Part shown: piece by piece, positions 17,876 through 42,369 of the stretch | Layout of the letters: each line of letters starts with the position of its first letter | How positions within the stretch are numbered: position 1 is the first letter of the stretch | Assembly: GCF_003600685.1 (NCBI RefSeq) | Contig: NZ_CP032084.1 | Span: forward strand, 1 to 64,000 | Direction of reading: 5' to 3' | DNA from: Achromobacter sp. B7 | GTDB taxonomy: Bacteria > Pseudomonadota > Gammaproteobacteria > Burkholderiales > Burkholderiaceae_B | Length of the DNA: 64,000 nt | The notes under the pieces: model-generated | Database searches by the model: none | Told to the model about the DNA's origin: nothing | What the model saw: only the letters and a program-made list of their open reading frames with translations | Position numbers and translations under genes: made by a program

Positions 17876-18946
17876 ATGTCATTTCTGCGGCTGGACAACG
17901 TCTCGAAGAACTACGGCGACTTGCGCGTCGTTTCCGACCTGAACCTGACCGTTGAAAAGGGCGAGTTCGTCTCACTGCTCGGCCCCTCGGGTTGCGGCAA
18001 GACCACCACCTTGCAGATGATCGCCGGCTTTGCCGACGTGACCCAGGGCGTCATCACGCTGGATGGGCGCGACATCACCCATGCCAAACCCAACACGCGC
18101 GGCCTGGGCATCGTGTTCCAAAGCTACGCCCTGTTTCCGCACCTGACCGTGGCCGACAACGTGGCCTTCGGCTTGAAGATGCGCAAAGTGGAACGCGCCG
18201 AGCGCGCGGAACGCGTGCGCGAGGCGCTGGCGCTGGTCAAGCTGGACAAGCACGCCGACCGCTATCCGCGCGAGCTTTCGGGCGGCCAACGCCAGCGCGT
18301 GGCGCTGTCCCGCGCGCTGGTCATCCGCCCGCCCGTGTTGCTGCTGGACGAGCCGCTGTCCAACCTGGATGCCAAGCTGCGCGAAGACATGCAGTTTGAA
18401 TTGCGCGGCATCCAGAAGAAGATCGGCACCACCACCGTGATGGTCACGCACGACCAGGCCGAAGCCCTGTCCATCAGCGATCGCGTCGTGGTCATGCAGG
18501 ACGGCCGTGCCACACAGGTGGACGCGCCGTTTCGCATGTACGAACATCCGCAAACCGAATTCATTTCGCGCTTTGTCGGCAAGACCAACCTGTTGCCTGG
18601 CCGCGTCACGCGTTGCGGCGCGCAAGCCGAAATCGAAACCGGCGCGCTGCGCGTGCTGGTCGACGGCGAAGGCCTGCGCCACGGCGACAACGTGCAGCTA
18701 TCGCTGCGCCCCGAAAAACTGGTGCCGGTGCCCGCCGGCCAGGGCAAGCTGGCCTGTGTGGTCAGCACGCGCTACTTCCTGGGCAGCCAGTGGATGTACG
18801 ACCTGGATTCGCCGGTGGGGGCGCTGACCGTGCTGACGCCCAACGACGGCCGCCGCCCGCATGACGATGGCGAGGCCATCGGGCTGGACTGGGCCGAGGG
18901 CGTGCTGCGCGTGTTGCGCGCGCCTGCCGTGGAAAAGGCCGCCTGA
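17876..18946 (+). CDS. Pot-type ABC transporter ATPase (module 1)
   Basis: This is a 356-residue ATPase of the spermidine/putrescine class. It has Walker A GPSGCGKTT, signature LSGGQRQRVALSRAL and Walker B LLLDEPLSNLDAKLR, plus a C-terminal TOBE region from about 285. It heads an operon with two permeases, three dehydrogenase subunits and a receptor. The substrate class is probably an amine, amino acid or opine, judged from the enzymes. Confidence 0.93.
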   Translation: MSFLRLDNVSKNYGDLRVVSDLNLTVEKGEFVSLLGPSGCGKTTTLQMIAGFADVTQGVITLDGRDITHAKPNTRGLGIVFQSYALFPHLTVADNVAFGLKMRKVERAERAERVREALALVKLDKHADRYPRELSGGQRQRVALSRALVIRPPVLLLDEPLSNLDAKLREDMQFELRGIQKKIGTTTVMVTHDQAEALSISDRVVVMQDGRATQVDAPFRMYEHPQTEFISRFVGKTNLLPGRVTRCGAQAEIETGALRVLVDGEGLRHGDNVQLSLRPEKLVPVPAGQGKLACVVSTRYFLGSQWMYDLDSPVGALTVLTPNDGRRPHDDGEAIGLDWAEGVLRVLRAPAVEKAA

Positions 18947-18947
18947 C

Positions 18948-19829
18948 ATGGCGACGCTGACTCAAGCCGCCACCGGCCCCAAGCCGCGCAATGATGGCCT
19001 GCTGGCCATTCTGGGCTCCATCCCGCTGGCCATTGTTTTTCTGACACTGGTGCTGACGCCGCTGGCGCTGACCTTCGTGCTGTCGTTTCGGCCGTTCGAC
19101 TACGGCGCGGGCATCTTGCCCGGCCACACGTTCGAACACTATCTGGCCGTGGTCACCGACAGCTACTTCCTGGAGATCTTCTGGCGCACCTTCTGGATCG
19201 CCGGCGTCACCACGCTGATCTGCGTGCTGATCGGCGCGCCCGAAGCCTACATCCTGTCCCGCATGGGCAAGCCGTGGCGGTCCATCTTTTTGCTGGTCGT
19301 GCTGTCGCCCCTGTTGATATCGCTGGTGGTGCGGGCGTTCGGCTGGAGCATGCTGTTGGGACCAGGCGGCGCCATCGGTCGCGCGGCCGCCGCCCTGGGC
19401 ATGGGGCCGCTGCTGTACACGCCCACCGCCGTCATCATCGGCCTGGTGCACGTGATGCTGCCCTTCATGGTCATCCCCGTGTGGACGTCGCTGCAAAAGC
19501 TGGACCCCACCGTCGAGCACGCCGCGCTGTCGCTGAACGCATCGCGTTTTCAGACGCTGACGCGCATCGTGCTGCCGCAAGCCATGCCCGGCATCCTGTC
19601 GGGCAGCCTGATCGTGTTTGGCCTGTCGGCCAGCTCGTTCGCCATCCCCGCGCTGCTGGGCGGACGACGGCTGAAGATGGTCGCCACCGTCGTGTACGAC
19701 GAATTCCTGACCGAGCTGAACTGGCCGCTGGGCGCGGCCATCGCCATCGTGCTCCTGGTGCTCAACGTCATCATCATGATGGCGTACAACCGCGTTGTCG
19801 AACGCTCTTACCGACGCAGCCTGGGCTAG
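18948..19829 (+). CDS. Pot-type ABC permease, PotB class (module 1)
   Basis: This inner-membrane permease of 293 residues has about six spans and the EAA loop EHAALSLNASRFQTLTRIVLP. ATG 18948 sits one base after the ATPase stop and gives a cytoplasmic N-terminus followed by a clean first span. It forms the channel with the next gene product. Confidence 0.92.
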   Translation: MATLTQAATGPKPRNDGLLAILGSIPLAIVFLTLVLTPLALTFVLSFRPFDYGAGILPGHTFEHYLAVVTDSYFLEIFWRTFWIAGVTTLICVLIGAPEAYILSRMGKPWRSIFLLVVLSPLLISLVVRAFGWSMLLGPGGAIGRAAAALGMGPLLYTPTAVIIGLVHVMLPFMVIPVWTSLQKLDPTVEHAALSLNASRFQTLTRIVLPQAMPGILSGSLIVFGLSASSFAIPALLGGRRLKMVATVVYDEFLTELNWPLGAAIAIVLLVLNVIIMMAYNRVVERSYRRSLG

Positions 19830-19845
19830 CCGACAAGGAACCAAC

Positions 19846-20640
19846 ATGCAGAAAAACGGCCCTTTCGCGCTGGCGTTCAACTTCCTGGTGGTGGCCTTCG
19901 TGCTGGCGCCGCTGGTCATCGTGTGCCTGGTGGCGTTCACGCCCGACTCCACGCTGACAGTGCCCACCACGCAATTTTCGCTGCGCTGGTTCCGGGCGGT
20001 GTTCGAACATCCCAACTTCATGCAGGCGTTTCAGAACAGCCTGTGGCTGGCCTTTCTGTCGGCCACCATCGCCGTGTGCCTGGCCGTGCCGGCCGCCATC
20101 GCCATTACGCGTTACCGCTTCCCGGGCCGCGATGTGCTGAACGGCCTGTTCCTGTCGCCGCTGATGATTCCGCACCTGGTGCTGGGCGTGGCGCTGCTGC
20201 GCTTTTTCGCGCTGATGGGCATGGCCGGCAGTTTTTCGTGGCTGGTCGCCGCGCACGTCGTCGTCATCACGCCGTACGTGATGCGGCTGGTGATCGGCGC
20301 GCTGGTCGGCTTTGACCGCTCCATCGAACACGCCGCGCTGTCGCTGGGCGCCAGCCGCGCCACCGTGTTCTTCCAGATGACCCTGCCGCTGATCATTCCC
20401 GGCGTGTCCGGCGGCTGGCTGCTGGCCTTCATCAACAGCTTCGATGAACTGACCATGTCCGTCTTCATCACCGCGCCGTCCACCATCACGCTGCCCGTGC
20501 GCATGTACATGTACGCCACGGAATCCATCGACCCGATGATGGCCGCCGTGTCGGCGCTGGTCATCCTGTTGACCGCCGTCACCATGCTGTTGCTGGACCG
20601 CGTGTACGGCCTGGACCGCGTGCTGGTGGGGCAGAAATGA
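19846..20640 (+). CDS. Pot-type ABC permease, PotC class (module 1)
   Basis: This second permease has 264 residues and about six spans. Its EAA loop reads EHAALSLGASRATVFFQMTLP, with SFDELTMSVFIT in the segment typical of PotC. ATG 19846 follows AAGGA. It is 16 bases behind the PotB-class gene and 37 bases ahead of the small iron-sulfur subunit. Confidence 0.92.
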   Translation: MQKNGPFALAFNFLVVAFVLAPLVIVCLVAFTPDSTLTVPTTQFSLRWFRAVFEHPNFMQAFQNSLWLAFLSATIAVCLAVPAAIAITRYRFPGRDVLNGLFLSPLMIPHLVLGVALLRFFALMGMAGSFSWLVAAHVVVITPYVMRLVIGALVGFDRSIEHAALSLGASRATVFFQMTLPLIIPGVSGGWLLAFINSFDELTMSVFITAPSTITLPVRMYMYATESIDPMMAAVSALVILLTAVTMLLLDRVYGLDRVLVGQK

Positions 20641-20677
20641 AACGCTTGCCGTTGGCGAAAAGAGAGGCGCCGGCATC

Positions 20678-21019
20678 ATGGCAATACTGAAACGCCTGGC
20701 GGAATCGGGCCGGCCCGCCGTCCCGTTCACCTTGAACGGGCAAGCCTGTACCGCGCTGGCCGGCGACACCGTCTTGACCGCCGTGCTGACCCAGGCCGAC
20801 TGCGTGCGCCATTCCGAATTCAGCGGCAGCCCACGCGCCGGCTTCTGCATGATGGGCGCCTGCCAGGACTGCTGGATGCAGCTTGAAGACGGCTCGCGCC
20901 TGCGCGCCTGCTCAACGTTTGTCGAACCCGGCATGCGTCTTTTAAGTCTGCCCATGGCGCCCGCTGCCGTGCCCGGCACGCTGGCGGCGGCACCCTGGCC
21001 CGAGGACGACATCGCATGA
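20678..21019 (+). CDS. Small 2Fe-2S subunit of heteromeric dehydrogenase (module 1, HcnA-like)
   Basis: This 113-residue ferredoxin-like subunit is of the type found in HcnA, opine oxidase and hydroxyproline dehydrogenase. Cys57, Cys62, Cys65 and Cys78 (GFCMMGACQDCW then RACST) supply the 2Fe-2S ligands. It passes electrons between flavoprotein subunits. Its stop overlaps the start of the large subunit by four bases, so the two are translationally coupled. Confidence 0.88.
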   Translation: MAILKRLAESGRPAVPFTLNGQACTALAGDTVLTAVLTQADCVRHSEFSGSPRAGFCMMGACQDCWMQLEDGSRLRACSTFVEPGMRLLSLPMAPAAVPGTLAAAPWPEDDIA

Positions 21020-22401
21020 GCATCGTGATGCCCGTCATCGTAGGCGCCGGCCCGGCCGGCGTGCGCGCCGCTCAGGCGCTGGTCGCGCACGGCCTGCGGC
21101 CCGTCATCCTGGACGAAGCGCTGCGCGCCGGTGGGCAGATCTACCGCCAGCCGCCACCCGGATTCCAACGCCCGAAGTCCGCGCTGTACGGCTTTGAACA
21201 TCGCAAGGCCGATGCCGTGCATCGCGCCATGGCCGCCTTGCAGCCGCACGCCGACTATCGACCCGGCAGCCTGGTGTGGAACGTGGAAGGCAAGACGCTG
21301 GACGTGATGCAAGACGGCGTCAGCACCGCCGTGCCCTACACCCACCTGATCCTTGCCACCGGCGCCACCGACCGCGTGCTGCCCTTTCCCGGCTGGCTGA
21401 CGCCCGGCGTCTACACCTTGGGCGGATCGCAGGTCGCGCTGAAATTCCAGGGCTGCGCCATCGGATCGCGCGTAGTCTTCATGGGTACCGGGCCGCTGCT
21501 TTACCTGGTGGCCTATCAATACGCCAAGGCCGGCGCGCAAGTGGCTGCCGTGCTCGACACCGCGCGCTTTACCGACCACCTGGCCGCGCTGCCCGGCATG
21601 CTGCGCGCGCCCGGGCTGCTGGCCAAGGGGATGTACACCATGGCCTGGCTGCGCGCGCATGGCGTGCCGCTGCATCGCGGCGTGCGGCCCGTCGCCGTGC
21701 ATGGCAAGGACCGCGTATCGGGCCTGACCTATCGCCAGGGCAACCGCGACCACACCGTGTCCTGCGACGCCGTGGCCTACGGCCTGGCGCTGCGATCCGA
21801 AACCCAACTGGCCAGCCTGGTCGGCTGCGAATTCGAATTCAATGCGCGCGATAGAAGCTGGACGCCACGCCGCGATACCGCCGGACGCGGCAGCGTGCCC
21901 GGCGTCTATGTCGCCGGTGACGGCGCCGCCATCGCCGGCGCCGACGCCGCCGAACTTGCGGGTGAACGCGCCGCGTTGGCGCTGCTGCAAGACATCGGCC
22001 AACCCGTCGACACCGCGCGTGCCCGCCTGCTGGAAACGCGCCTGGACGCCAACAGCCGAGTGCGCTCCGCGCTGGAACGCGCCTTTCCCTTTCCCGAGGA
22101 CTGGGCCGCAACCATCGCCGACGACACCGTCATCTGCCGCTGCGAAGACGTGACGGCTGGCACGGTGCGACGCGCCGTCACCGACACGGGGGCGCAAGAA
22201 CTGAACCGCCTCAAAGCGCTGACACGCGTCGGCATGGGCCGCTGCCAGGGCCGCATGTGCGGCGCGGCGGCAGCCGAGGTCCTGGCGCAAGCCTGCGGCC
22301 GCACGCCCGCCGACGTGGGCCGCTTGCGTAACCAGCCGCCCGTCAAACCGGTACCCGTGCGCGTGGTGTGCCTGGAACGTCAGGACAAGGTGTCGACATG
22401 A
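21016..22401 (+). CDS. FAD/NAD(P)-binding subunit with BFD-like Fe-S domain (module 1, HcnB-like)
   Basis: This 461-residue flavoprotein has the dinucleotide motif VIVGAGPAGVRAAQAL at residue 7 and a second nucleotide fold around MGTGPLLY. The C-terminus is a BFD-like Fe-S domain with C374-x-C376 and C410-x4-C415. It matches the alpha subunit of HcnABC/opine-oxidase-type dehydrogenases. It overlaps its neighbours by four bases on both sides. Confidence 0.88.
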   Translation: MSIVMPVIVGAGPAGVRAAQALVAHGLRPVILDEALRAGGQIYRQPPPGFQRPKSALYGFEHRKADAVHRAMAALQPHADYRPGSLVWNVEGKTLDVMQDGVSTAVPYTHLILATGATDRVLPFPGWLTPGVYTLGGSQVALKFQGCAIGSRVVFMGTGPLLYLVAYQYAKAGAQVAAVLDTARFTDHLAALPGMLRAPGLLAKGMYTMAWLRAHGVPLHRGVRPVAVHGKDRVSGLTYRQGNRDHTVSCDAVAYGLALRSETQLASLVGCEFEFNARDRSWTPRRDTAGRGSVPGVYVAGDGAAIAGADAAELAGERAALALLQDIGQPVDTARARLLETRLDANSRVRSALERAFPFPEDWAATIADDTVICRCEDVTAGTVRRAVTDTGAQELNRLKALTRVGMGRCQGRMCGAAAAEVLAQACGRTPADVGRLRNQPPVKPVPVRVVCLERQDKVST

Positions 22402-23567
22402 CGCGGCGCATCGACACCGAAGTGGCCATCATCGGCGGCGGCATCGTCGGTGGCAGCGCCGCGCTGTTCCTGCGGCGCGCCGGCGTACCCGTCGTCTTGC
22501 TGGAAGCCGCCTTGTGCGGCGCGCGCGCCAGCGGCGTCAACTATGGCGGTGTGCGGCGGCAAGGGCGCGGGCTGGAACAGATGCCCCTGGCCCGACGCGC
22601 ACATGAACTGTGGGGCCAGCTGCCGTCACTGATCGGCATCGATGGCGAATACGTGCGCTCTGGTCATTTGAAGCTGGCCGCGTCCAACGCCGACATGGTG
22701 CAGTTGGAAGCGTATCGCCAGCGCACGCGCGGCTTCGGCATGCACCTGCAAATGCTGGACCGCCGCGAGCTGGCGCGCCGCTTCGGCTGGCTGGGCCAGG
22801 ACGTCGCGGGCGGATCCTTCTGCCCCGAAGACGGCCACGCCAACCCCCGGCTGGTGTCACCGGCTTTCGCGCGCGCGGCGGCGGCGCTGGGCGCCGACGT
22901 GCGCGAAGGCGTGAAGGTTACCCAGGCCGATCACGACGGCACGCACTTCATCGTGCGCGCCGACGGCCTGGAAGTGCGCTCCCGCGTCCTGCTCAATTGC
23001 GCGGGCGCCTGGGCGGGCCGCTTTGCAGAGCACTTTGGCGAAGCCGTACCCGAAACGTCCATCCACCCTTTGATGATGGTCACCGAGCCGCTGCCCGTCT
23101 TCATGGACGTCAGCCTGGGCATACAAGGCGGTGGCATCTACGCACGACAGGTCGCGCGCGGCAATTGCGTCATCGGCGGTGGCCGTGGCGTGTCCACCGA
23201 CCCCGACTACGCACGGCCTGGCCGCGCCGGCCTGGGCGCGCTGATGGCCAACGCTACCCGGCTGCTGCCCGTGCTGCGCGGCGCGCAGGTCGTCCGCTTC
23301 TGGACCGGCGTGGAAGGCAACATGCCCGACCACAATCCCGTGCTGGGCCCCAGCGCCCGAGTCCCCGGCCTGTTCCACGCCTTCGGCCTGTCCGGCGCCG
23401 GTTTCCAGATCGGCCCCGCCGTGGGCGAAGTGCTTTCCGAACTGGTCCTGCGCGGCCAGTCCTCGATTCCTATCGATGCCTTTTGCATTGAACGATACGC
23501 GGCCGCCGCTCACGGCGCCGTGGCTCGGCCTGAACGTGTTCGTGAGCAAACGCAGGAGTCACCATGA
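22398..23567 (+). CDS. FAD-dependent DAO-family subunit (module 1, HcnC-like)
   Basis: This is the likely catalytic beta subunit, 389 residues, related to glycine and D-amino-acid oxidases. The FAD motif is EVAIIGGGIVGGSAALFLRR and the closing segment HAFGLSGAGFQIGPAVGE. It should oxidise a C-N bond of the imported compound to an imine. ATG 22398 overlaps the preceding stop, and its own stop overlaps the receptor gene start. Glycine, D-proline, hydroxyproline and opines are all possible substrates; sequence alone does not decide. Confidence 0.88.
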   Translation: MTRRIDTEVAIIGGGIVGGSAALFLRRAGVPVVLLEAALCGARASGVNYGGVRRQGRGLEQMPLARRAHELWGQLPSLIGIDGEYVRSGHLKLAASNADMVQLEAYRQRTRGFGMHLQMLDRRELARRFGWLGQDVAGGSFCPEDGHANPRLVSPAFARAAAALGADVREGVKVTQADHDGTHFIVRADGLEVRSRVLLNCAGAWAGRFAEHFGEAVPETSIHPLMMVTEPLPVFMDVSLGIQGGGIYARQVARGNCVIGGGRGVSTDPDYARPGRAGLGALMANATRLLPVLRGAQVVRFWTGVEGNMPDHNPVLGPSARVPGLFHAFGLSGAGFQIGPAVGEVLSELVLRGQSSIPIDAFCIERYAAAAHGAVARPERVREQTQESP

Positions 23568-24634
23568 TGGATAAGAAACAGGGCGCATCGCGCCTGAGCA
23601 AGGGGAAGCGGCTGCTGGGCGCGGCAACGTTGGCGTTGCTGTCCGCAGGGGCCATGGCGCAGCAAAAGACCTTGTACGTCGGCATGAACGGCGGCGACAT
23701 GGAACGCGCCTTCACGCAATACGTGTTCCCCGATTTCGAGAAAGCCAACAACGTGAAAATCGTCGTCGTGCCCGGCACGTCGACCGACGTACTGGCCAAG
23801 GCGCAAGCCTATAAAGACAACCCGCAGATGCACGTCATGTTCCTGGACGACGGCATCATGGCACGCGCCATCTCCATGAGCCTGTGCCAACAGCTTAATG
23901 ACGACCCCGTCCTGAAAGAGCTGTACCCCACCGCCGTGATGAAAGACCGCATGGCCGCCGGCATCGACATCGGCATGACCGGCCTGGGCTACAACACCAA
24001 GATGTTCGCCGACAAAGGCTGGGCACCGCCCACCTCCTGGATGGACCTGGCCGACCCCAAGTACAAAGGCAAGGTCGTATTCCAGTCCGCCGCCGGCAGC
24101 ACCTTTGGCCTGCACGGCTTCCTGATGTTCAACCGCATCCAGGGCGGCGACGACAAGAACTATGAACCCGGCTTCAAGAAGTGGCCCGACACCATCGGCC
24201 CCAACGTGCTGGAATACATCCCCAACTCGGCCAAGCTGGCCGAAATGATCCAGTCCAACGAAGCCGCCATCTTCCCGCTGACCCCCACCGCCATCGCCCG
24301 CCTGAAAAAGCGCGACATCCCGGTGGAATACGCCCAGCCCAAGGAAGGCTCCGTCATCCTGATGGTGGCTGAATGCGTCATCGCCAAGAACAGCGAACCC
24401 GAACTCTCGCAAAAATTGGCGCTGTACCTCTTGTCCGCCAGCGCGCAGGCCAAGGCACTGGAAATGGGTGGCCACTTCCCATCCAACAAAAACGTCAAGG
24501 CGTCCGCCGCCAGCGCCGACGCGCTCAAGCGCTTCCAGGGCTACATGGAAAACGCCAAGATCCTGGATTGGGACCAGATCAACACTGCGCGCCCCGCCTT
24601 CAACGCCCGCTGGAACCGCACCGTCGAACGTTGA
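23564..24634 (+). CDS. Pot-type ABC transporter periplasmic binding protein (module 1)
   Basis: This receptor for the module 1 transporter has 356 residues. A long signal peptide contains KRLLGAATLALLSAGAMA and cleavage is likely near residue 31. The mature part starts QQKTLYVGMNGGDMERAF, as in PotD-type proteins. Two adjacent ATGs (23564, 23567) share an AGGAG; either is possible. Unusually the receptor gene is last in the operon, whereas in module 2 it is first. Confidence 0.92.
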   Translation: MMDKKQGASRLSKGKRLLGAATLALLSAGAMAQQKTLYVGMNGGDMERAFTQYVFPDFEKANNVKIVVVPGTSTDVLAKAQAYKDNPQMHVMFLDDGIMARAISMSLCQQLNDDPVLKELYPTAVMKDRMAAGIDIGMTGLGYNTKMFADKGWAPPTSWMDLADPKYKGKVVFQSAAGSTFGLHGFLMFNRIQGGDDKNYEPGFKKWPDTIGPNVLEYIPNSAKLAEMIQSNEAAIFPLTPTAIARLKKRDIPVEYAQPKEGSVILMVAECVIAKNSEPELSQKLALYLLSASAQAKALEMGGHFPSNKNVKASAASADALKRFQGYMENAKILDWDQINTARPAFNARWNRTVER

Positions 24635-24715
24635 TAAGATCTTGCAGCGCGCCTGTGGATAAACCGCAAGCGCGCTCGCAAGCAAGCGCCTGCCAGCGTG
24701 CGGCCGGTACGCGCG

Positions 24716-24775: not shown

Positions 24776-24803
24776 CGCCCGTCCGCCAACAAGGAACCTT
24801 TGC

Positions 24804-25739: not shown

Positions 25740-25809
25740 GCACACTACCAAGAGGCGTCTATCCCCGCCGGCAGGAATGAACATCAACGCCTAGCATTGG
25801 CACTGGCGC

Positions 25810-28190: not shown

Positions 28191-28195
28191 GCACC

Positions 28196-28212
28196 TATAA
28201 ATAGCGTTTATA
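28196..28212. promoter_or_regulatory. LysR box between the divergent LysR and Bug genes
   Basis: TATAAA-TAGCG-TTTATA is a perfect 6+5+6 dyad and fits the T-N11-A rule. It lies six bases upstream of the regulator start, which fits autorepression and activation of the 28344 operon. Confidence 0.65.
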
Positions 28213-28343
28213 CAAATATAAGCCCGCAGGGCTGCTGCCCTTGAAGCCAGAAGCCTAGGATGACCCTGTTGTTGCAGCGAACCAGGACCGGACACGCATG
28301 ATCCGGCCACAAGGAAGTTCTATCAACAAGGGGAAACCAAGCC

Positions 28344-29324: not shown

Positions 29325-29360
29325 TCTTGCGCGCCTAGTCCTTTCTTTGGAATCAACGAT

Positions 29361-34010: not shown

Positions 34011-34085
34011 TTGTACGGACAATAACCGATTGACAACGATGTCTAGTCGGATTCATTATTTGTCCGGACATTCATGTACGGACAA
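34011..34085. promoter_or_regulatory. Three operator copies between GntR and module 2
   Basis: The sites are TTGTACGGACAA at 34011-34022, TTGTCCGGACAT at 34060-34071 and ATGTACGGACAA at 34074-34085. All fit WTGTMCGGACAW, and the inner TGTCCGGACA is a perfect palindrome. The last two together form a larger dyad around a two-base centre. They flank and overlap the predicted promoter and are the likely binding sites of the adjacent GntR protein. Confidence 0.75.
34030..34059 (+). promoter_or_regulatory. Predicted promoter of catabolic module 2
   Basis: TTGACA at 34030-34035 and CATTAT at 34054-34059 are spaced by 18 bases. Transcription would start near 34066, inside the second operator copy, so bound GntR would block it. 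Confidence 0.6.
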
Positions 34086-34110
34086 AGTGTACCAACAATC
34101 GGGGGTTCTC

Positions 34111-35142: not shown

Positions 35143-35167
35143 CACGCATCGCCGATCGTGCAATACG

Positions 35168-35188
35168 GGGCGGCGCGGCGCGTCGCCC
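35168..35188 (+). terminator. GC hairpin after the module 2 receptor gene
   Basis: GGGCGGCGC pairs with GCGTCGCCC (one G-T pair, three-base loop) between the receptor stop and the ATPase start. No T-run follows, so stabilisation or partial attenuation of the upstream mRNA is more likely than full termination. Confidence 0.45.
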
Positions 35189-35200
35189 ACGGGAGCCTTC

Positions 35201-36262
35201 ATGAGTTATCTAGTGCTGAACCGCCTGTGCAAGCGCTATGGCGAAACGACCGCCGTGGAAGAACTGAGCCTGTCCGTCAATCGTGGCGAGTTCATTTCCC
35301 TGCTGGGGCCTTCGGGTTGCGGCAAGACCACCACGCTGCAAATGATCGCGGGCTTTGTCGAACCCACCAGCGGCAGCATTGTGCTGGACGGGCGCGACGT
35401 CAGCCGCGTCCCGGCCAACAAGCGCGGGCTGGGGCTGGTGTTCCAGAACTATGCCCTGTTCCCGCACATGACCGCGTTTGAAAACGTGTCGTTCGGCCTG
35501 GAGATGCAGCGGGTCAAGAAGGAAGAACGCGAAGCGCGCGTGGCCGATGCCTTGAAGCTGGTCGGGCTGGCGCATCTGGCGGACCGGCATCCGGCTCGCA
35601 TGTCGGGCGGGCAGCAGCAGCGCGTCGCCTTGGCGCGCGCGCTGGTGATCCGGCCCAGCGTGCTGCTGCTGGACGAGCCACTGTCGAACCTGGACGCCAA
35701 GCTGCGCGAGGAAATGCAGCTGGAACTGCGCAGCATCCAGCGCACGATCGGCACCACCACCATTCTGGTCACCCACGATCAGTCGGAGGCGCTGGCGCTG
35801 TCGGATCGCATCGTGGTGATGAACCAGGGCCGGGTCGAACAAGTGGCCGAGCCCTTTCAAGCCTACGAAGGGCCGGCCAGCCACTTCGTCGGCGGCTTCC
35901 TGGGCAAGGCGAATGTGTTCACGCCCACGGCCGAACAATACGAAAACGAGACGCGTGCGCGCATCGGCGAAGCGCATATCCCCATGGCCGGCGCACCCGT
36001 GCCGCAAGGCGCGGTGATCGTCCGCCCCGAAAAAATCCTGTTCTCGGAACCTGCCGCCTGTGCGTTGCCCGGACGCATGAAAACGCGCGTATTCCAGGGC
36101 AACCATTGGCTGTGCCAGGTCGACACATCGGTGGGCGAAGTGATGGTGATCCGGCAGAACGACGGCGTGGCCGTGCCCGCCGAGGGCGAGCCCGTGCACT
36201 TGCGCTGGCGCGCGCAGGACATGTGCGAAGTCGCGGCCGCGCCCAAGGGCCTGGCGTCATGA
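35201..36262 (+). CDS. Pot-type ABC transporter ATPase (module 2)
   Basis: This 353-residue ATPase has Walker A GPSGCGKTT, signature [15 protein letters not shown], Walker B LLLDEPLSNLDAKLR and a C-terminal TOBE domain. It aligns end to end with the module 1 ATPase. GGGAGCC lies upstream of the ATG. Its stop overlaps the next permease start by four bases. Confidence 0.93.
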   Translation: MSYLVLNRLCKRYGETTAVEELSLSVNRGEFISLLGPSGCGKTTTLQMIAGFVEPTSGSIVLDGRDVSRVPANKRGLGLVFQNYALFPHMTAFENVSFGLEMQRVKKEEREARVADALKLVGLAHLADRHPARMSGGQQQRVALARALVIRPSVLLLDEPLSNLDAKLREEMQLELRSIQRTIGTTTILVTHDQSEALALSDRIVVMNQGRVEQVAEPFQAYEGPASHFVGGFLGKANVFTPTAEQYENETRARIGEAHIPMAGAPVPQGAVIVRPEKILFSEPAACALPGRMKTRVFQGNHWLCQVDTSVGEVMVIRQNDGVAVPAEGEPVHLRWRAQDMCEVAAAPKGLAS

Positions 36263-37125
36263 GCGCGCGCGCCAACCCATGGATGTTGAGCGCGCCGGCG
36301 CTGGTGGTCTACGCCACGTTCCTGGTGGTGCCGATGGCGCTGGTGTTCCTGATCAGCTTCTTCGATTTCCAGTTCTATGGCGGCATGCAGGTGACCTTCA
36401 CCTGGAAGAACTACGTCGAGATTTTCAGCGACGGCTACTACTACGAAATCTACGCGCGCACCTTCGGCGTGGCGGCGGCCGTGACCGTTGCTTGCCTGGT
36501 GCTGGGCACCGCCGAGGCCTACGTGCTGTCGCGCATGGCCAACCCATGGAAAGGCTTGTTCCTGATGGTGGTGCTGGGCCCTTTGTTGATTTCGGTAGTG
36601 GTGCGCACGCTGGGCTGGGCGCTGCTGTTCGGGTCCACCGGACTAATCAACAAGGCGCTGATGGGCATCGGGCTGATCAGCACGCCCGTGGACCTGATGT
36701 ACAGCAATCTGGGCGTGGGCATCGCGCTGACGCACGTGCTGGTGCCCTTCATGGTGATCTCGGTGTGGGCGTCGTTGCAACGGATCAATCCCGCCACCGA
36801 AGCGGCCGCCCTGTCGTTGGGCGCGTCCCAGTTCACGGTGATCCGGCGCGTGATCGTGCCGCAGGTGATGCCCGGCATTTTGTCGGGCGCGATCATGGTG
36901 TTCGCGATGGCGGCCAGCTCGTTCGCCACGCCGGCCATCATTGGCGGCCGGCGCTTGAAGAACGTGGCCACGGCGGCCTACGACGAATTCCTGAACACAT
37001 TGAACTGGCCGCTGGGCGCGGCGCTGGCCGTGGTGCTGTTGCTGGCCACCGTCGTCGTGCTGTTGTCCGCCAACCGGATCATTGAACGCAAGTACGGTGC
37101 CGTCTTCAACCAGGCAGGGGGCTGA
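36259..37125 (+). CDS. Pot-type ABC permease, PotB class (module 2)
   Basis: This 288-residue permease has about six spans and the EAA loop TEAAALSLGASQFTVIRRVIVP. ATG 36259 overlaps the ATPase stop. The GGRRLKNVATAAYDEFLNTLNWPLGAA segment matches the equivalent part of the module 1 permease nearly word for word, which supports common descent. Confidence 0.92.
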   Translation: MSARANPWMLSAPALVVYATFLVVPMALVFLISFFDFQFYGGMQVTFTWKNYVEIFSDGYYYEIYARTFGVAAAVTVACLVLGTAEAYVLSRMANPWKGLFLMVVLGPLLISVVVRTLGWALLFGSTGLINKALMGIGLISTPVDLMYSNLGVGIALTHVLVPFMVISVWASLQRINPATEAAALSLGASQFTVIRRVIVPQVMPGILSGAIMVFAMAASSFATPAIIGGRRLKNVATAAYDEFLNTLNWPLGAALAVVLLLATVVVLLSANRIIERKYGAVFNQAGG

Positions 37126-37126
37126 C

Positions 37127-37927
37127 ATGCAATTCCGTAACGGCCCCATCGGCCTGGTCTTTCACACGATCTTCATCCTGTTCATCCTGGCGCCCATCGT
37201 CATGGTGTGCGCGGTGGCGTTCACGTCCGAGGGCTTTATTTCTTTGCCCACGGGCGGGCTGTCGTTGCGCTGGTTCCGCGCCATCCTGGACAACCCGCGT
37301 TTTATCGAGGCGTTCTGGTTCAGCCTTGGCCTGGGCACCCTGTCCGCCACGCTGGCCATCGGGCTGGCCGTGCCCACCGCGCTGGCCCTGGCCCGCAACC
37401 GCTTTCGTGGCCGCGAGGCGTTGGTGGCGTTCTTCCTGTCGCCGCTGATGATTCCGCATGTGGTGCTTGGCCTGGCATTCCTGAAGTTCTTCACCACCGT
37501 GGATCTGGCCGGCACCTATGTGGGCCTGGTGGTGGCGCACGTCATCCTGGTGATGCCCTACGCGCTGCGCCTGGTGCTGGCGTCGGCCACCGGTATCGAC
37601 CCCGCGCTGGAGCGCGCCGCGCAATCGCTGGGCGCGTCCAACTGGACGGCATTCCGGCGCGTGGTGCTGCCGCTGCTGCTGCCGGGCGTGGTCAGCGGCT
37701 GGGTCATCGCTTTCATTACCAGCTTTGACGAACTGACCATGTCGATCTTCATCGCCTCGCCGTCCACGACGACGCTGCCGGTGCGCATCTTCCTGCATAT
37801 CGAAGACACCATCGATCCGCTCGTGACCGCCGTGTCGGCCGTGCTGATCTACGTGACGATCATCGCCATTTTCATTCTGGACCGCGTGGTCGGCCTGGAA
37901 AAGCTGTTTGTAGGAAAGGGACGCTAA
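37127..37927 (+). CDS. Pot-type ABC permease, PotC class (module 2)
   Basis: This 266-residue permease has about six spans and the EAA loop ERAAQSLGASNWTAFRRVVLP. It starts one base after the PotB-class stop. Its own stop shares one base with the start of the first flavoprotein (TAATG), so transport and catabolic genes form a single translated unit. Confidence 0.92.
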   Translation: MQFRNGPIGLVFHTIFILFILAPIVMVCAVAFTSEGFISLPTGGLSLRWFRAILDNPRFIEAFWFSLGLGTLSATLAIGLAVPTALALARNRFRGREALVAFFLSPLMIPHVVLGLAFLKFFTTVDLAGTYVGLVVAHVILVMPYALRLVLASATGIDPALERAAQSLGASNWTAFRRVVLPLLLPGVVSGWVIAFITSFDELTMSIFIASPSTTTLPVRIFLHIEDTIDPLVTAVSAVLIYVTIIAIFILDRVVGLEKLFVGKGR

Positions 37928-39084
37928 TGACGGACGAGAAAGAACTGGCGCCCCGCGCGCCCGTGCATCGCGGCATTTATGACGCCGCGGTGATCGGCGG
38001 CGGGCTGGTGGGATCAGCCATCGCCTATGGCTTGCGGCGCGAGCTGGACCATGTGGCCGTGCTGGACGAAGGCGACGTGGCCTACCGCGCGTCGCGCGGC
38101 AACTTCGGGCTGGTGTGGGTGCAAAGCAAGGGCATGGGCCTGCCGCGCTACGGCGTGTGGACGATGACGTCCGCGTCCGGCTGGCCGCGTCTGGCCGCGC
38201 AACTGCTGGATGAAACCGGCGTGGACGTGCACCTGGAACAGCGCGGTGGGCTGCATGCGCTGCTAAGCGACGAAGAGGTGGAAGCGCGCGGCACGTTCAT
38301 GAAGACCTTGCTGGCGCAGCCGGGCATGGCGCAATACGACTGGAAGCTGCTGGACCGCGCCGAAGTGGCCGACCTGGTGCCGGGCATCGGCCCCGATGTG
38401 CGCGGCGCGACGTGGACGCCGGTCGATGGCATTGCCAACCCGCTCAAGCTGCTGCGCGCCTTGCATGCGAGTTTTGCACAGCGGGTTGTGGATTACCTGC
38501 CGCGCCGTCCGGCGCAAAGCATCAAGCAGCGCGACGGCGTGTTTGAGATCGCGACGCCCTCGGGCACGGTGCGCGCGCGCAAGGTGGTGCTGGCATCGGG
38601 CTTGTCCAACAAGGACCTGGGTGCGCAGGTGGGTCTGGATGTGCCGGTGCGCCCGCAACGCGGCCAGATCGTGGTGCTGGAACGCACGCGCCGCCTGTTG
38701 GAAACACCGTTGTCCACCTTGCGCCAAACCGATGAAGGCACGTGGCTGATCGGCGATTCGCAGGAAGAAGCCGGCTATGTGGATAACCTGGTGGGGCTGC
38801 CGATCCTGGGCACGCTGGCCGACCGCGCCGTACGCACGCTGCCTGCATTGCGCGACGTGCGCGTGGTGCGTAGCTGGGCGGCGCTGCGCGTGATGTCCAA
38901 GGACGGCTTTCCGATCTATCAGCAATCCGAAACGTGCCCGGGCGCCTTTGTCGCGACCTGTCATAGCGGCGTGACGCTGGCCGCCGCGCACGCCCTCAAT
39001 CTGGCGCCCATGATCGTGGCCGGCAAGCTTGCCGACGACATGGCGCCCTTCTCGACCCGGAGGTTTCATGTTCAAGAGGCTTGA
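37927..39084 (+). CDS. FAD-dependent DAO-family oxidoreductase, first copy (module 2)
   Basis: This 385-residue flavoprotein has AAVIGGGLVGSAIAYGLRREL near residue 20 and the closing CHSGVTLAAAHALNLAPMI. It belongs to the glycine/D-amino-acid oxidase superfamily and is a candidate catalytic subunit of the Fe-S dehydrogenase encoded behind it. Its end overlaps the small Fe-S gene by 17 bases. A second, different DAO protein lies at 40820, so this module has two where module 1 has one. Confidence 0.88.
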   Translation: MTDEKELAPRAPVHRGIYDAAVIGGGLVGSAIAYGLRRELDHVAVLDEGDVAYRASRGNFGLVWVQSKGMGLPRYGVWTMTSASGWPRLAAQLLDETGVDVHLEQRGGLHALLSDEEVEARGTFMKTLLAQPGMAQYDWKLLDRAEVADLVPGIGPDVRGATWTPVDGIANPLKLLRALHASFAQRVVDYLPRRPAQSIKQRDGVFEIATPSGTVRARKVVLASGLSNKDLGAQVGLDVPVRPQRGQIVVLERTRRLLETPLSTLRQTDEGTWLIGDSQEEAGYVDNLVGLPILGTLADRAVRTLPALRDVRVVRSWAALRVMSKDGFPIYQQSETCPGAFVATCHSGVTLAAAHALNLAPMIVAGKLADDMAPFSTRRFHVQEA

Positions 39085-39376
39085 TGAGGCGCAGCGCCAG
39101 GCGCAAGGCGCGCCCGTGCGCGTGACGGTCAACGGGGCCGAGCTGCAATGCCGCCAGGGCGACAGCGTGGCGGCCGCCTTGTTCGCGGGCGGTGTGTCGG
39201 CCTGTCGCGACACCGCCGTGAACGAAGTGCCGCGCGGGCCCTATTGCATGATGGGCGTGTGCTACGACTGCCTGGTCACCATTGACGGCCAGGCGAACCA
39301 GCAGGGCTGCATGACGGCCGTGCGCGAAGGCATGAAGATCGAGCGCCAGCTGGGCGCGCGCAAGGTGCAGGCATGA
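39068..39376 (+). CDS. Small 2Fe-2S subunit of heteromeric dehydrogenase (module 2, HcnA-like)
   Basis: This 102-residue ferredoxin-type subunit has its ligands at Cys60, Cys65, Cys68 and Cys81 (PYCMMGVCYDCLV then GCMTA). Compared with the module 1 homologue it keeps the same cysteine spacing. GGAGG lies just before ATG 39068, inside the end of the preceding gene. It overlaps the large subunit by four bases. Confidence 0.88.
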   Translation: MFKRLDEAQRQAQGAPVRVTVNGAELQCRQGDSVAAALFAGGVSACRDTAVNEVPRGPYCMMGVCYDCLVTIDGQANQQGCMTAVREGMKIERQLGARKVQA

Positions 39377-40815
39377 TCGAAACAACGCAATGCGATTTGC
39401 TGGTGGTGGGCGCGGGTCCGGCCGGGTTGGCGGCGGCGACGGTGGCGGCCGGGCTGGGCGTGGATACCGTGCTGCTGGATGAACAGCCGGCGCCGGGCGG
39501 ACAGATCTATCGCGCCATCACGACCACGCCGGTGACCGACCGCGGCATCCTGGGCGAAGACTACTGGCATGGTGCATCCCTGATTGCGCCCTTCAAGCAA
39601 TCGGGCGCGCGCTACGTGCCGGGCGCCACGGTGTGGGCGGTGGCCGAGCGCACCGCGCCGCATCCCGAAAAGGGCTTTGAAGTGGCGTATTCCGTGGCGG
39701 GTGAAGCGCGCATCATCCATGCGCGCCGCTTGCTGCTGGCAACGGGCGCGCAAGAGCGTCCCTTCCCCATTCCGGGCTGGACGCTGCCGGGCGTGATCAC
39801 GGCGGGTGCCGCGCAGATTCTGCTGAAGTCGGCCGGTGTGGTGCCGGCGGATCGCACGGTGCTGGCGGGCAGCGGCCCGCTGCTGTATCTGGTGGCGTGG
39901 CAATACCTGAACGCGGGCGTGAAGATCGACGCGCTCTTGGAAACCACGCCGCCCGGACGCATGGGCCAGGCGTTGCCCAAGGTCTGGGGCTTTCTGCGGT
40001 CGCCGTATCTGGGCAAGGGCTTGAAGCTGCTGCGCGCGGTCAAGGCCGCGGTGCCGATCACACGCGGCGTGACCGCGTTGGAGGCCGTTGGCGACGGCAA
40101 GCTGCAAAGCGTGCGCTACACGGCGGGCGGCGTCACCAAGACCTTGCCGGCCGAACAACTGATGCTGCATCAGGGCGTGGTGCCCAACGTGAACCTGTCA
40201 CGCGCCGTGGGTGCCGAGCATCGTTGGAACGACGCCCTGGACTGTTGGGAGCCGCAGGTCGACGAGTGGGGCCTGACGACGGTGGACGGCATCGGCATGG
40301 CCGGTGACGGCGCGGGTATCGCGGGTGCGTTGGCGGCGGAACACCGGGGCCGGCTGGCCGCGCTGCAAGCCGCGCATCTGTTGGGCCGTATCGACGCCGC
40401 CAAGCGCGATAGACAGGCCGTGGCGCCGCGCGAGGCGCTTGCCCGTGCCGTGAGAGGCCGCGAGTTCTTCGACACGCTCTACAAGGCGCCTGATGCGTTC
40501 CGGCGGCCCACCGGCGACACCATCGTGTGCCGCTGCGAGGAAGTCACCGCCGCGCAGGTGCGCGAAACGGTCAAGCTCGGGTGCAGCGGACCTAACCAGA
40601 TGAAGGCGTTTCTTCGCTGCGGCATGGGGCCGTGCCAGGGGCGCTTCTGCGGGTTGACGGTGGCCGAGATCATCGCCGAAGAGCGCGGCGTGCCAACGCA
40701 GGAAGTGGGCTATTACCGGCTGCGCTTTCCGACCAAGCCGCTGACGCTGGGCGAGCTGGCGTCGCTGCCGCAGACGGACGATTCCCGCCAAGCCGTTGTC
40801 CGCCTGAAAAAGTAA
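39373..40815 (+). CDS. FAD/NAD(P)-binding subunit with BFD-like Fe-S domain (module 2, HcnB-like)
   Basis: This 480-residue flavoprotein has LLVVGAGPAGLAAATVAAGL at the N-terminus, a second nucleotide fold at LAGSGPLLYLVAWQ, and a C-terminal BFD-like domain with C386-x-C388 and C421-x4-C426. The architecture is the same as the module 1 large subunit. It would shuttle electrons from the DAO subunit toward the respiratory chain. Confidence 0.88.
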   Translation: MIETTQCDLLVVGAGPAGLAAATVAAGLGVDTVLLDEQPAPGGQIYRAITTTPVTDRGILGEDYWHGASLIAPFKQSGARYVPGATVWAVAERTAPHPEKGFEVAYSVAGEARIIHARRLLLATGAQERPFPIPGWTLPGVITAGAAQILLKSAGVVPADRTVLAGSGPLLYLVAWQYLNAGVKIDALLETTPPGRMGQALPKVWGFLRSPYLGKGLKLLRAVKAAVPITRGVTALEAVGDGKLQSVRYTAGGVTKTLPAEQLMLHQGVVPNVNLSRAVGAEHRWNDALDCWEPQVDEWGLTTVDGIGMAGDGAGIAGALAAEHRGRLAALQAAHLLGRIDAAKRDRQAVAPREALARAVRGREFFDTLYKAPDAFRRPTGDTIVCRCEEVTAAQVRETVKLGCSGPNQMKAFLRCGMGPCQGRFCGLTVAEIIAEERGVPTQEVGYYRLRFPTKPLTLGELASLPQTDDSRQAVVRLKK

Positions 40816-40819
40816 TGCC

Positions 40820-41983
40820 ATGACCGGTTCAACGCGGTCGGCGGCGGTCATCATCATTGGCGGGGGCCTGCACGGCAGCTCGGCCGCGCTGCATCTGGCG
40901 CGTGCGGGCGTGCCCGCCCTGGTGATCGAAAAGAATTACGTGGGTCGGCACGCGTCGGGCGTGAACGCGGGCGGCGTGCGGACCTTGTCGCGGCATCTGG
41001 CCGAAGTGCCGCTGGCGCTGGCCTCGCGCGAACTTTGGGTTCGCATCGGCGACCTGGTGGACGACGATTGTGGTTTCGAGCAGCACGGGCAGGTGCGCGT
41101 GGCCGAGAACGCCGCCGACGCCGACACGTTGCGGCAGCGCCTGCGCACGATGACGGACCACGGCTACACGCACGAAGCATGGATCAGCGCCGAGGACCTG
41201 CGCGACATGATCCCCGCCATCGCGCCAACCATCCAGGGCGGGCTGATGGCGCGCGAGGACGGCGCGGCCGACCCGTATCGCACAACGCTGGCGTTTCGTA
41301 CCAAGGCCGCGAGCCTGGGTGCGCGTTTTCTGGAAGGCGTGCGCGTGCATGGCGTGACGCACGACGGCACGCAGTGGCGCGTGGACACTGATGCCGGCGC
41401 CTACACCGCGCCGCAAGTGTTGAACTGCGCGGGCGCCTGGGCCGACCGTATCGCGGCGCAGTGGGGTGAGCCGGTGCCGCTCCTGGCCATCAGCCCGATG
41501 ATGTTGGTGACGTTGCGCATGGATCACTTTCTGGACCCCGTCGTGCTGGGCACCGGGCGCGCGCTATCGTTCAAGCAGCGCGGCAACGGCACGGTGCTGA
41601 TCGGCGGCGGGCGGCGGGCCTGGGTGGATCGCGACGCCGAATGGACCGAGCTGGATTTCCGCTCGTTGGCGGAAGGCGCGCGTACGGTCTGCGACTTATT
41701 CCCCCACATGCGCCACGCCATCGTGAACCGGGGTTGGGCGGGCATCGAAGCGGCCATGCCGGACGAGATCCCCGTGATCGGTCGCAGCAGCCGCCACGAG
41801 ACCGCGTTCCATGCGTTCGGCTTTTCGGCGCATGGCTTTGAACTGGGCCCCATCGTGGGCCGCATCATGGCCGATTTGATTACCACCGGCGCGACGGACA
41901 TGCCGATTGCGCCCTTCCGGATTGACCGTTTTTCGGACGCGGCGAAGGCGTCCACCCCATCAGAAAAGGAGCAAGACGAATGA
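40820..41983 (+). CDS. FAD-dependent DAO-family oxidoreductase, second copy (module 2, HcnC-like)
   Basis: This 387-residue protein has the FAD motif VIIIGGGLHGSSAALHLARAGV and VGRHASGVNAGGVR, which resembles the module 1 beta subunit (ASGVNYGGVR) more than the first DAO of this operon does. It lies four bases after the large subunit and overlaps the RidA gene by four bases. It is probably the true beta subunit; the first copy may act on a different bond or a downstream product. Confidence 0.87.
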   Translation: MTGSTRSAAVIIIGGGLHGSSAALHLARAGVPALVIEKNYVGRHASGVNAGGVRTLSRHLAEVPLALASRELWVRIGDLVDDDCGFEQHGQVRVAENAADADTLRQRLRTMTDHGYTHEAWISAEDLRDMIPAIAPTIQGGLMAREDGAADPYRTTLAFRTKAASLGARFLEGVRVHGVTHDGTQWRVDTDAGAYTAPQVLNCAGAWADRIAAQWGEPVPLLAISPMMLVTLRMDHFLDPVVLGTGRALSFKQRGNGTVLIGGGRRAWVDRDAEWTELDFRSLAEGARTVCDLFPHMRHAIVNRGWAGIEAAMPDEIPVIGRSSRHETAFHAFGFSAHGFELGPIVGRIMADLITTGATDMPIAPFRIDRFSDAAKASTPSEKEQDE

Positions 41984-42369
41984 ACGACGACATCGTGCGC
42001 AAGCAAACCAACCAGCGCCTGAGCCGCATCGTGATCCATGGCGATACGGTCTATGTGGCGGGCGTGACGTCAGCGGCCGAAGGCGGCATCGTGGCGCAGA
42101 CGCGCGACGCGCTGGCCAAGATCGACGGCTATCTGGCCGAGGCCGGCACCGACAAGTCGCGACTGCTGTCGGTGCAGATCTGGCTGAAGGATATCGACCG
42201 CGATTTCGCGGGCATGAACAGCGTGTGGGCCGAGTGGGCGCTGCCCGACGCGATGCCCACCCGCGCCACCTGCGAGGCCAAGCTGGCCGCGCCGGAGCTG
42301 CTGGTGGAGATTATCGTGACGGCCGCCAAGCGGCCGCCGTATGTCAGCGGGCCGGTGTCTGAAAGCTGA
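41980..42369 (+). CDS. RidA-family enamine/imine deaminase
   Basis: This 129-residue Rid protein hydrolyses reactive enamines and imines to oxo acids and ammonia. TNQRLSRIVIHGDTVYVAG opens it and the conserved arginine is in MPTRATCEAKLAAPELLVEI. It closes the module 2 operon, which is strong context for imine-producing flavoenzymes upstream. Its 3' end overlaps the converging deaminase gene by 26 bases. Confidence 0.9.
   Translation: MNDDIVRKQTNQRLSRIVIHGDTVYVAGVTSAAEGGIVAQTRDALAKIDGYLAEAGTDKSRLLSVQIWLKDIDRDFAGMNSVWAEWALPDAMPTRATCEAKLAAPELLVEIIVTAAKRPPYVSGPVSES

Follow-up and report, generated by a model that had tools for sequence, protein, structure and literature searches.

Two importer–dehydrogenase cassettes, one most likely of the opine dehydrogenase kind, and a linked HyuAB block on the chromosome of Achromobacter sp. 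B7

Organisation of the locus

The stretch of DNA analysed, referred to below as the window, comprises the first 64,000 nucleotides of the Achromobacter sp. B7 genome (contig NZ_CP032084.1, forward strand) and includes two gene cassettes, each combining a Pot-type ATP-binding cassette (ABC) importer with a heteromeric flavin-dependent dehydrogenase. Module 1 spans positions 17876-24634 and module 2 positions 34111-42369, both on the + strand. Since the genome is one contig of 6.24 Mb and dnaN and gyrB are located at 1455-5115 of the window, both modules are chromosomal.

An original prediction, made from the sequence of the window alone, had placed two such modules here, and clear domain matches bear this out, with seven genes in module 1 and nine in module 2. 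As had been described, each includes a Pot-type importer, a 2Fe-2S subunit (γ, gene C), an FAD/NAD subunit with a BFD domain (α, gene A), and a DAO-type subunit (β, gene B). DAO-type subunits are indeed present in both, but their number differs, as module 1 has one and module 2 has two (B1 and B2). The receptor gene is last in module 1 and first in module 2, and the genes overlap or nearly so, both as noted earlier; gaps do not exceed 37 bp in module 1, which includes three 4-bp overlaps, and 58 bp in module 2, which also includes 4-bp overlaps. The genes for IclR and GntR regulators were likewise found where expected, on the − strand and divergent from the modules. The TctC-HyuA-HyuB block between the modules (28344-33189) was not taken up in the original prediction, and the RidA gene (PF01042) that ends module 2 was not mentioned. 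The features are listed below; 'pre' and 'post' refer to β genes lying before and behind gene A, respectively.

16818-17660, − strand: regulator of the IclR family, divergent from module 1 (matches to NCBIfam IclR-type models, each below cut-off)
17705-17754, + strand: two direct repeats AAATTC..TG..CGGAAA upstream of module 1, a candidate regulator site
17762-17791, + strand: promoter-like TTGACC-18-TAGACT upstream of module 1
17876-18946, + strand: module 1 PotA-like ABC ATPase (PF00005 and TOBE_2; below the PotA equivalog cut-off)
18948-19829, + strand: module 1 PotB-like permease (domain matches, BPD_transp_1)
19846-20640, + strand: module 1 PotC-like permease (52% identical to its module 2 counterpart, the nearest paralogue in the genome)
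20678-21019, + strand: module 1 γ subunit, C (Fer2_4; Cx4Cx2Cx11-12C)
21016-22401, + strand: module 1 α subunit, A (FAD/NAD and BFD [2Fe-2S])
22398-23567, + strand: module 1 β subunit, B (DAO family; B2 or 'post' side of the β tree)
23564-24634, + strand: module 1 receptor (SBP_bac_8)
24804-25739, + strand: GhrA-like 2-hydroxyacid dehydrogenase behind the module 1 receptor (domain and NCBIfam matches)
26433-27266, + strand: AraC/GyrI-like regulator (domain matches)
27288-28310, − strand: LysR-family regulator, divergent from the TctC-HyuAB block
28344-29324, + strand: TctC-family periplasmic receptor, 36 bp before HyuA
29361-31418, + strand: HyuA (hydantoinase/oxoprolinase A), proposed pyro-opine lactamase subunit (PF05378, PF01968, PF19278)
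31411-33189, + strand: HyuB (hydantoinase/oxoprolinase B; PF02538)
33176-33979, − strand: GntR/HutC-type regulator, divergent from module 2 (models below cut-off)
34030-34086, + strand: promoter-like TTGACA-18-CATTAT from 34030, overlapping an inverted repeat TTTGTCCGGACAT-TC-ATGTACGGACAAA at 34059-34086, a candidate GntR operator
34111-35142, + strand: module 2 receptor (SBP_bac_8)
35201-36262, + strand: module 2 PotA-like ATPase (ABC_tran and TOBE_2)
36259-37125, + strand: module 2 PotB-like permease (domain matches, BPD_transp_1)
37127-37927, + strand: module 2 PotC-like permease (domain matches, BPD_transp_1)
37927-39084, + strand: module 2 β-1 subunit, B1 (DAO; NoxB/OoxB or 'pre' side of the β tree)
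39068-39376, + strand: module 2 γ subunit, C (Fer2_4)
39373-40815, + strand: module 2 α subunit, A (FAD/NAD and BFD; groups with Bradyrhizobium and vitopine-plasmid α subunits)
40820-41983, + strand: module 2 β-2 subunit, B2 (DAO; 'post' side of the β tree)
41980-42369, + strand: RidA-family imine/enamine deaminase (PF01042), last gene of module 2

The α subunits of both modules match Pyr_redox_2, Fer2_BFD and SO_alpha_A3. An open reading frame listed at 36279-37085 is a wrong frame of the module 2 PotB-like permease gene.

Sites ahead of both modules are possible operators. The direct repeats upstream of module 1 are partly kept in two relatives, and the inverted repeat TTTGTCCGGACAT/ATGTACGGACAAA is conserved in G138 and almost completely in G237, both of the same genus, and not in G207. 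Promoter scans gave site numbers similar to, or slightly above, those of shuffled sequences (2 compared with 1.0, and 4 compared with 1.6).

Two groups of genes behind module 2 were also seen. A cytosine deaminase-like gene and a BMP-type ABC importer occupy 42344-48875 on the opposite strand; in Azospirillum (L007), an amidohydrolase-BMP importer cluster is found beside module 1 instead. Further on (50035-52472), a VRR-NUC gene is followed by a TsiV-type immunity gene, resembling an effector-immunity pair of type VI secretion.

Survey of related loci

Loci encoding related α subunits were gathered from plasmid records, 80 named contigs and 74 further genomes (G-numbered), and neighbouring genes were annotated by tblastn using the window and Ti-plasmid proteins as references. 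The survey comprised 187 α matches in 182 loci, with the window counted under both module orders. Matches without a 20-kb locus (G131:C145, G242:C141, G144:C169 and G212:C483) and L189, which has no α match, were left out; the gene-order count excluded loci without an α match, and G083 (44%) and G104 (partial) were not scored as α carriers. A quick α tree of 173 rows was built with FastTree, and a careful α tree comprised 50 rows hand-chosen from the 173 plus one. Proteins with internal stops or unusual length, including OoxB of NC_002377 (cut by the fetched stretch), were excluded from trees, and the opine dehydrogenase proteins of Bradyrhizobium japonicum USDA110 and Pseudomonas putida KT2440 were not among the tree rows.

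A Rhizobium match (L246) considered as a reference for HcnABC proved to be another cluster, and no other HcnABC reference was found. Locus L043, on a 37.7-kb contig assigned to Brucella daejeonensis, is a copy of the noc region of pTiC58 (NoxB 96%, NoxA 92% and HyuA 96% identical).

Module 2 and the opine dehydrogenases

Flavin-containing opine dehydrogenase (OpnDH) is specified by OdhB-C-A in P. putida and by OdhB1-C-A-B2 (bll7193, 7192, 7191, 7190) in B. japonicum. In the latter, each β subunit functions with the same α and γ subunits, and opine dehydrogenase activity was measured; the same study had recorded OpnDH-type clusters accompanied by putative ABC transporter genes (PMC4575208).

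Module 2 has the OpnDH make-up, with α (FAD and BFD), β (DAO) and γ (Fer2) genes in tandem. The cofactor motifs are present, namely GxGxxG in α and β, Cx4Cx2Cx11-12C in γ, and RxW in both β subunits. The CxC...Cx4C cluster motif of the α subunit was found with a spacing of 15-35, the range searched; PMC4575208 prints 15-20, and NoxA and OoxA also match at 15-35.

The order receptor-PotABC-B-C-A was found in 33 of the 182 loci, 27 of which also have B2 and 23 of which have RidA next. Among four named Bradyrhizobium loci, L045 and L085 (B-C-A-B) have a Pot-type importer in front, and L068 and L088 are arranged otherwise. Eight loci of one genus (G406, G492, G611, G656, G333, G507, G637 and G453) group with L045 and L085 and share their order. 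On the Ti plasmid pTi_CFBP2681 of Allorhizobium vitis, genes for LysR, a receptor, PotABC, B, C and A lie beside a D-vitopine dehydrogenase gene, and the same region holds HyuAB, RidA and a second C-A pair. The products are 55% (receptor), 57% (PotA), 52% (PotB), 55% (PotC), 47% (B), 51% (C) and 49% (A) identical to those of module 2. VoxA/B is named among the families for opine catabolism (PMC10745273).

In the FastTree tree, the module 2 α subunit falls in a 28-row clade (support 100) together with those of Bradyrhizobium, OoxA and the vitopine plasmid. The careful tree defined a 12-row clade (97/94) of module 2, the two Bradyrhizobium loci and the vitopine plasmid, and placed 27 opine-type α subunits together (82/97). 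RidA is near 47 of 102 loci of the module 2 clade and ornithine cyclodeaminase near 12 of the 102, compared with 0 of 53 module-1-clade loci in each case.

Module 2 thus most likely belongs to the opine dehydrogenases, combined with an importer of the Pot type, and the opine substrate that had been suggested for it is well supported by gene order, clade, RidA and the vitopine Ti plasmid. The proposed control by IclR and GntR is a genomic inference; LysR alone is nearby in 27 of the 33 loci that share the order of module 2, and GntR occurs in the lineage of the window.

Close relatives of the module 2 dehydrogenase (α 68-75%) in L014, L161, L300 and L301 have TctC-type receptors nearby and no Pot importer; the uptake system seems to have been swapped there.

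A different class of substrate must also be considered, namely that uptake and oxidation by the modules are directed not at opines but at imino acids or N-methyl amino acids (proline isomers, hydroxyproline, sarcosine or betaines). The best solved relative of both B2 and the module 1 β subunit is 1y56_B, which we take to be chain B of a Pyrococcus L-proline dehydrogenase entry. Elsewhere in the genome, Pot-type importers adjoin proline racemase genes. The OpnDH superfamily also takes in D-hydroxyproline and L-proline dehydrogenases (PMC4575208). However, the racemase-linked α subunits, including that of this genome, form a separate clade in the careful tree (100/100), which indicates that D-hydroxyproline probably has its own enzyme, and proline racemase is near 0 of 155 loci of the module 1 or module 2 clades and 2 of 32 others. 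Hydroxyproline, named as a relative's substrate in the original prediction, is therefore not favoured: its racemase-linked set is separate in the genome and in another α clade, and no racemase is nearby. For module 2, the RidA, ornithine cyclodeaminase and HyuAB neighbours suit opines better. Imino acids as the substrates are on the whole improbable, but may apply to module 1.

The racemase-linked sets were recorded as follows. A third importer and heteromeric dehydrogenase set (L292; G000:C1:1453000-1466000) is beside proline racemase and consists of genes for proline racemase, DAO, a fused Fer2-FAD subunit, an inositol-phosphatase-like protein, a PotA-like ATPase, a fused permease and a receptor. 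At L313 (positions 4987-9983; G000:C1:4494000-4513000), genes for a Pot-type receptor, an ATPase and a fused permease directly precede a proline racemase gene.

Relationship between the two modules

The importer components of the modules are 51% (PotA), 49% (PotB) and 52% (PotC) identical, whereas identities are 35-36% for the receptors, 32% for γ and 35% for α. The module 1 β subunit is 28% identical to B1 and 38% identical to B2, which share 24% with each other. Within the genome, each PotC-like permease has the other as its nearest paralogue (52%; 42% for the next one), and the same is true of the receptors (36%; 32% for the next one).

These relationships bear on the possibility that the importers are plain polyamine or γ-aminobutyric acid (GABA) transporters, in operon with an amine dehydrogenase for polyamines or their conjugates. 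PotABC and PhnSTUV are the nearest named importer families, and the receptors fold like PotD and the Atu4243 GABA receptor, among others in the PotD/opine-receptor fold cluster. However, the permeases and receptors of the two modules are each other's nearest paralogues, and the equivalog cut-offs are far from reached (PotA, 356 and 354 against 482 bits; PotD, 27 and 51 against 582 bits). We thus give little credence to plain polyamine transport, and assignment as the spermidine/putrescine importer PotABCD by curated equivalog models was rejected. Rideopine is a putrescine conjugate (PMC10410297, PMC8554961); hence a polyamine opine would unite the polyamine and opine readings.

The dehydrogenase subunits separate the modules further. 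The module 1 α subunit belongs to a 23-row FastTree clade (support 99), nearly all with the module 1 order and IclR, which is nested in a 53-row clade (100). In the careful tree, the module 1 side forms its own 18-row clade (100/100) apart from the NoxA, OoxA and Bradyrhizobium α subunits. In the β tree, 'pre' and 'post' genes separate with 5 changes, compared with 66 in shuffles. B1 falls in an 85-row clade (100) with NoxB and with OoxB of pTiCFBP4996, and B2 (38 rows, 97) and the module 1 β subunit (42 rows, 100) are in two different 'post' clades. Receptor and α distances correlate within each cassette type (Mantel r 0.58, n = 21, and 0.70, n = 32; p 5e-4), though shared ancestry alone would also explain this.

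The proximity of the modules (~9.5 kb), the functions they have in common and the 49-52% identity of their ATPases and permeases would fit a recent tandem duplication after which the receptor gene was rearranged. However, the subunits fall in different clades, each cassette keeps its own gene order across classes, and in G098, a genome of another genus of the same family assembled as one contig, both modules are present 1 Mb apart, which indicates that their adjacency is a local event. Recent duplication is accordingly extremely improbable. Among seven same-genus genomes with a match, the modules are side by side in five (G000, G138, G735, G758 and G778), and no module 1 cassette was seen in G237. 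In the remaining one, G797, which at first resembled a second case of separated modules, both contigs end between the modules, so that it carries no information on this point.

The phylogeny thus speaks against the close pairing as twin systems in the original prediction. Judged by trees and gene order, the modules are two recurrent, independently inherited cassettes from different clades of one superfamily. The view of importer and dehydrogenase as a modular, recurrent unit is upheld, with one predicted operon per module and the module 1 and module 2 orders in 21 and 33 of the 182 loci, respectively.

Module 1

The order PotABC-C-A-B-receptor was found in 21 of the 182 loci, with IclR in 20 of these. 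IclR is near 25 of 53 module-1-clade loci and 0 of 102 module-2-clade loci; the corresponding counts for GhrA are 14 of 53 and 1 of 102. In Cupriavidus pampae (L054), a GhrA relative (49%) is also found behind the receptor of a module 1 cassette. A relative is within the stretch in L181 and L185, but the majority of loci sharing the module 1 order (21 in all) are without one. Between HyuB and C, loci L156 and L307 encode a thiamine diphosphate enzyme of subfamily PRK08199; the candidate assignment of this gene in the HyuAB-C-A-B operons as glyoxylate carboligase was rejected. The GhrA and PRK08199 neighbours hint at a small 2-oxo acid product for module 1, and the GhrA-like gene possibly belongs to its pathway. 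Module 1 represents a variant clade for which no characterised member was found.

Another type of cluster in the module 1 clade, with a DppABDF-type importer followed by C-A-B, was seen in ten loci (L051, L056, L057, L064, L065, L067, L074, L075, L221 and L225), which variously carry GhrA, aldehyde dehydrogenase, aminotransferase and Lrp genes.

The HyuAB block and its linkage to dehydrogenase genes

The window HyuA and the vitopine-plasmid copy, 58% identical to each other, share a clade of 10 rows (SH-aLRT 100), 7 of which are linked to a dehydrogenase. Across the HyuA tree, linked copies cluster together (10 changes, compared with 20 in shuffles). In pTiC58, HyuAB is divergent from noxBCA. 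Opening of lactam opines has been proposed for such genes on succinamopine and nopaline plasmids, in a study that also mentions a potABCD-like transporter (PMC6733357), and likewise for rideopine (PMC8554961). NocT has a higher affinity for pyronopaline than for nopaline, and such opines can cyclise spontaneously (PMC4192606).

HyuA is in the stretch of 18 of 89 loci from the G-numbered genomes, in 6 of 24 families, where 1.01 would be expected from the number of HyuA genes in each genome; L152 was excluded from this count, and linkage of the G138 locus (L153) was assigned manually on the basis of L152. HyuA was found within 9 kb of 12 of 53 module-1-clade α genes, 10 of 102 of the module 2 clade and 0 of 32 others, the window copy being tallied with module 1. 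Among 300 genomes of the order, all 10 with HyuA of at least 60% identity carry an α subunit of at least 45%, which was found in 20 of the 300. HyuA (E <= 1e-180) was found in 25 of 151 genomes of the same family, and all 25 carry α, present in 57 of the 151; in this family, 20 of 37 HyuA copies are at most 12 kb from an α gene, compared with 0.43 expected. HyuB overlaps the γ gene by 4 bp in L069, L228, L231 and L305, all with module-1-clade α subunits. In L308-L310, TctC is between HyuAB and a module-2-like dehydrogenase, with one direction throughout.

Lactam opening has already been proposed for Ti plasmids (PMC6733357, PMC8554961), and searches of open-licence literature found no proposal of it as a general link. 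Of the results, the linkage of HyuAB to dehydrogenases beyond Ti plasmids most deserves follow-up.

Two further arrangements were recorded. L171 (G055:C2) has the interleaved order HyuA HyuB TctC HyuA TctC B C A HyuB TctC. Three HyuA relatives (79-80%) not linked to α have one internal stop each (G799:C7:307529, G760:C1:5673226 and G737:C14:411216).

Proposed pathway

In the proposed pathway, the module 2 receptor and PotABC-like pump would import an opine or close analogue (an N-carboxyalkyl amino acid or N-carboxyalkyl amine). The α-β-γ dehydrogenase would oxidise the secondary amine at the FAD of the β subunit, and electrons would pass to FMN, the iron-sulfur centres, the FAD of the α subunit and the respiratory chain, probably in this order. 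B1 and B2 may be alternative catalytic subunits with A and C in common. The resulting imine, aided by RidA, would break down to give a 2-oxo acid together with an amino acid or amine; no paper joining RidA, opine, imine and dehydrogenase was found in open-licence literature. The TctC-HyuA-HyuB system is predicted to take up a lactam (pyro) conjugate, the ATP-dependent opening of which would yield the dehydrogenase substrate. Module 1, as a second, independently inherited cassette, would handle another secondary amine, possibly yielding a small 2-oxo acid for reduction by the GhrA-like enzyme encoded behind it. Cofactors, opine dehydrogenase activity and exchange of β subunits are described for relatives (PMC4575208); the substrates of both modules, the lactam opening, the role of RidA and the regulation are what we infer here.

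Several observations weigh against this pathway. The Km of BjOpnDH2 for octopine is 19.5 mM (PMC4575208); hence the natural substrate is probably a compound other than octopine. OoxA and NoxA are outside the 12-row module 2 clade of the careful tree, and the node uniting them with it has 82/97 support. HyuAB is outside the module 2 operon, as the GntR gene lies between, and two same-genus genomes, G735 and G758 (L293, L294), have both modules without the HyuAB block. Since the four 4-bp overlaps belong to the module 1 clade, the tightest HyuAB links are not direct support for module 2, which lowers the odds slightly. HyuA is near only 4 of the 80 named contigs, and a smaller excess was obtained relative to proline racemase anchors (11 of 97 α anchors against 1 of 68, p 0.016, among the 150 HyuA matches listed), the 11 including anchor pairs that share one HyuA. 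The linkage counts overstate independence because many linked loci are close kin, and in the 89-locus count the HyuA of L209 is very divergent (30%, long branch) and is weak evidence. The rideopine-like region of pTi932/pTi1078 is without hydantoinase genes (PMC10410297).

Some of these points would also fit a HyuAB that belongs to a separate 5-oxoproline, hydantoin or caprolactam-type pathway in a catabolic island, with the modules independent of it. The block forms its own unit with TctC and LysR, the two relatives above do without it, and the HyuA family acts on 5-oxoproline and lactams generally (PMC8453981, PMC13274462). However, the linkage is repeated in several families, co-occurrence with α is 25 of 25, HyuB overlaps γ genes of the module 1 clade, and the window HyuA clade takes in the vitopine-plasmid copy. 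A separate pathway is thus unlikely, though less so than the imino acid or polyamine alternatives. The pathway in which module 2 imports and oxidatively cleaves opines, HyuAB opens their lactam form and module 1 handles another secondary amine is, on balance, somewhat more probable than not.

A broader proposal can be made only tentatively and may well fail: that the HyuAB enzymes of the window's clade serve specifically to hydrolyse pyro-opine lactams at the expense of ATP, that HyuAB, receptor and opine-type dehydrogenase constitute a widespread, crown-gall-independent chromosomal pathway with which common bacteria of soil and plants use spontaneously cyclised glutamate-type opines, and that the module 1 clade extends it to conjugates from which a small 2-oxo acid is released.

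Opine dehydrogenases occur in bacteria unrelated to crown gall, and the 19.5 mM Km raises the question of their natural substrates there (PMC4575208). A conserved import-and-oxidise cassette that brings its own receptor, together with the predicted lactam-opening enzyme linked to it, would make this question testable, and HyuAB predicts that the ring-closed form is met in nature. The putative ring-opening enzyme, linked to such dehydrogenases, suggests a route for eating ring-shaped opines outside plant tumours and, if true, this would explain what one clade within the large HyuAB family does.

Comparison with known systems

Module 2 shares with B. japonicum OpnDH the four dehydrogenase genes, their order B1-C-A-B2 and the cofactor motifs, but the lineage of the window has GntR in the place of the LysR found in most relatives. 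The OdhC-A-B of Burkholderia thailandensis (PMC4575208) has the C-A-B order of module 1, a comparison of gene order alone, and no activity for it was found in the accessible text of that source.

The vitopine region (VoxA/B) of A. vitis Ti plasmids shares the order LysR-receptor-PotABC-B-C-A together with HyuAB and RidA. It differs in that pTi_CFBP2681 is without B2 and carries the region on a Ti plasmid by an opine synthase gene, whereas the window modules are chromosomal. The noc and occ regions (pTiC58 and octopine Ti plasmids; NoxAB, OoxAB) combine a B-C-A dehydrogenase with an ABC importer, as in module 2, with HyuAB beside noxBCA and RidA beside ooxA, but the importer of the noc region (NocPQMT) belongs to the polar amino acid type rather than the Pot type.

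Heteromeric D-hydroxyproline dehydrogenase has the superfamily and subunit types in common with the modules, but its α clade is separate and racemase-linked. Finally, the 5-oxoprolinase/hydantoinase HyuAB and caprolactamase CapAB have the same domain make-up as the window HyuA and HyuB; unlike these enzymes at large, the window HyuA belongs to a clade that is mostly dehydrogenase-linked.

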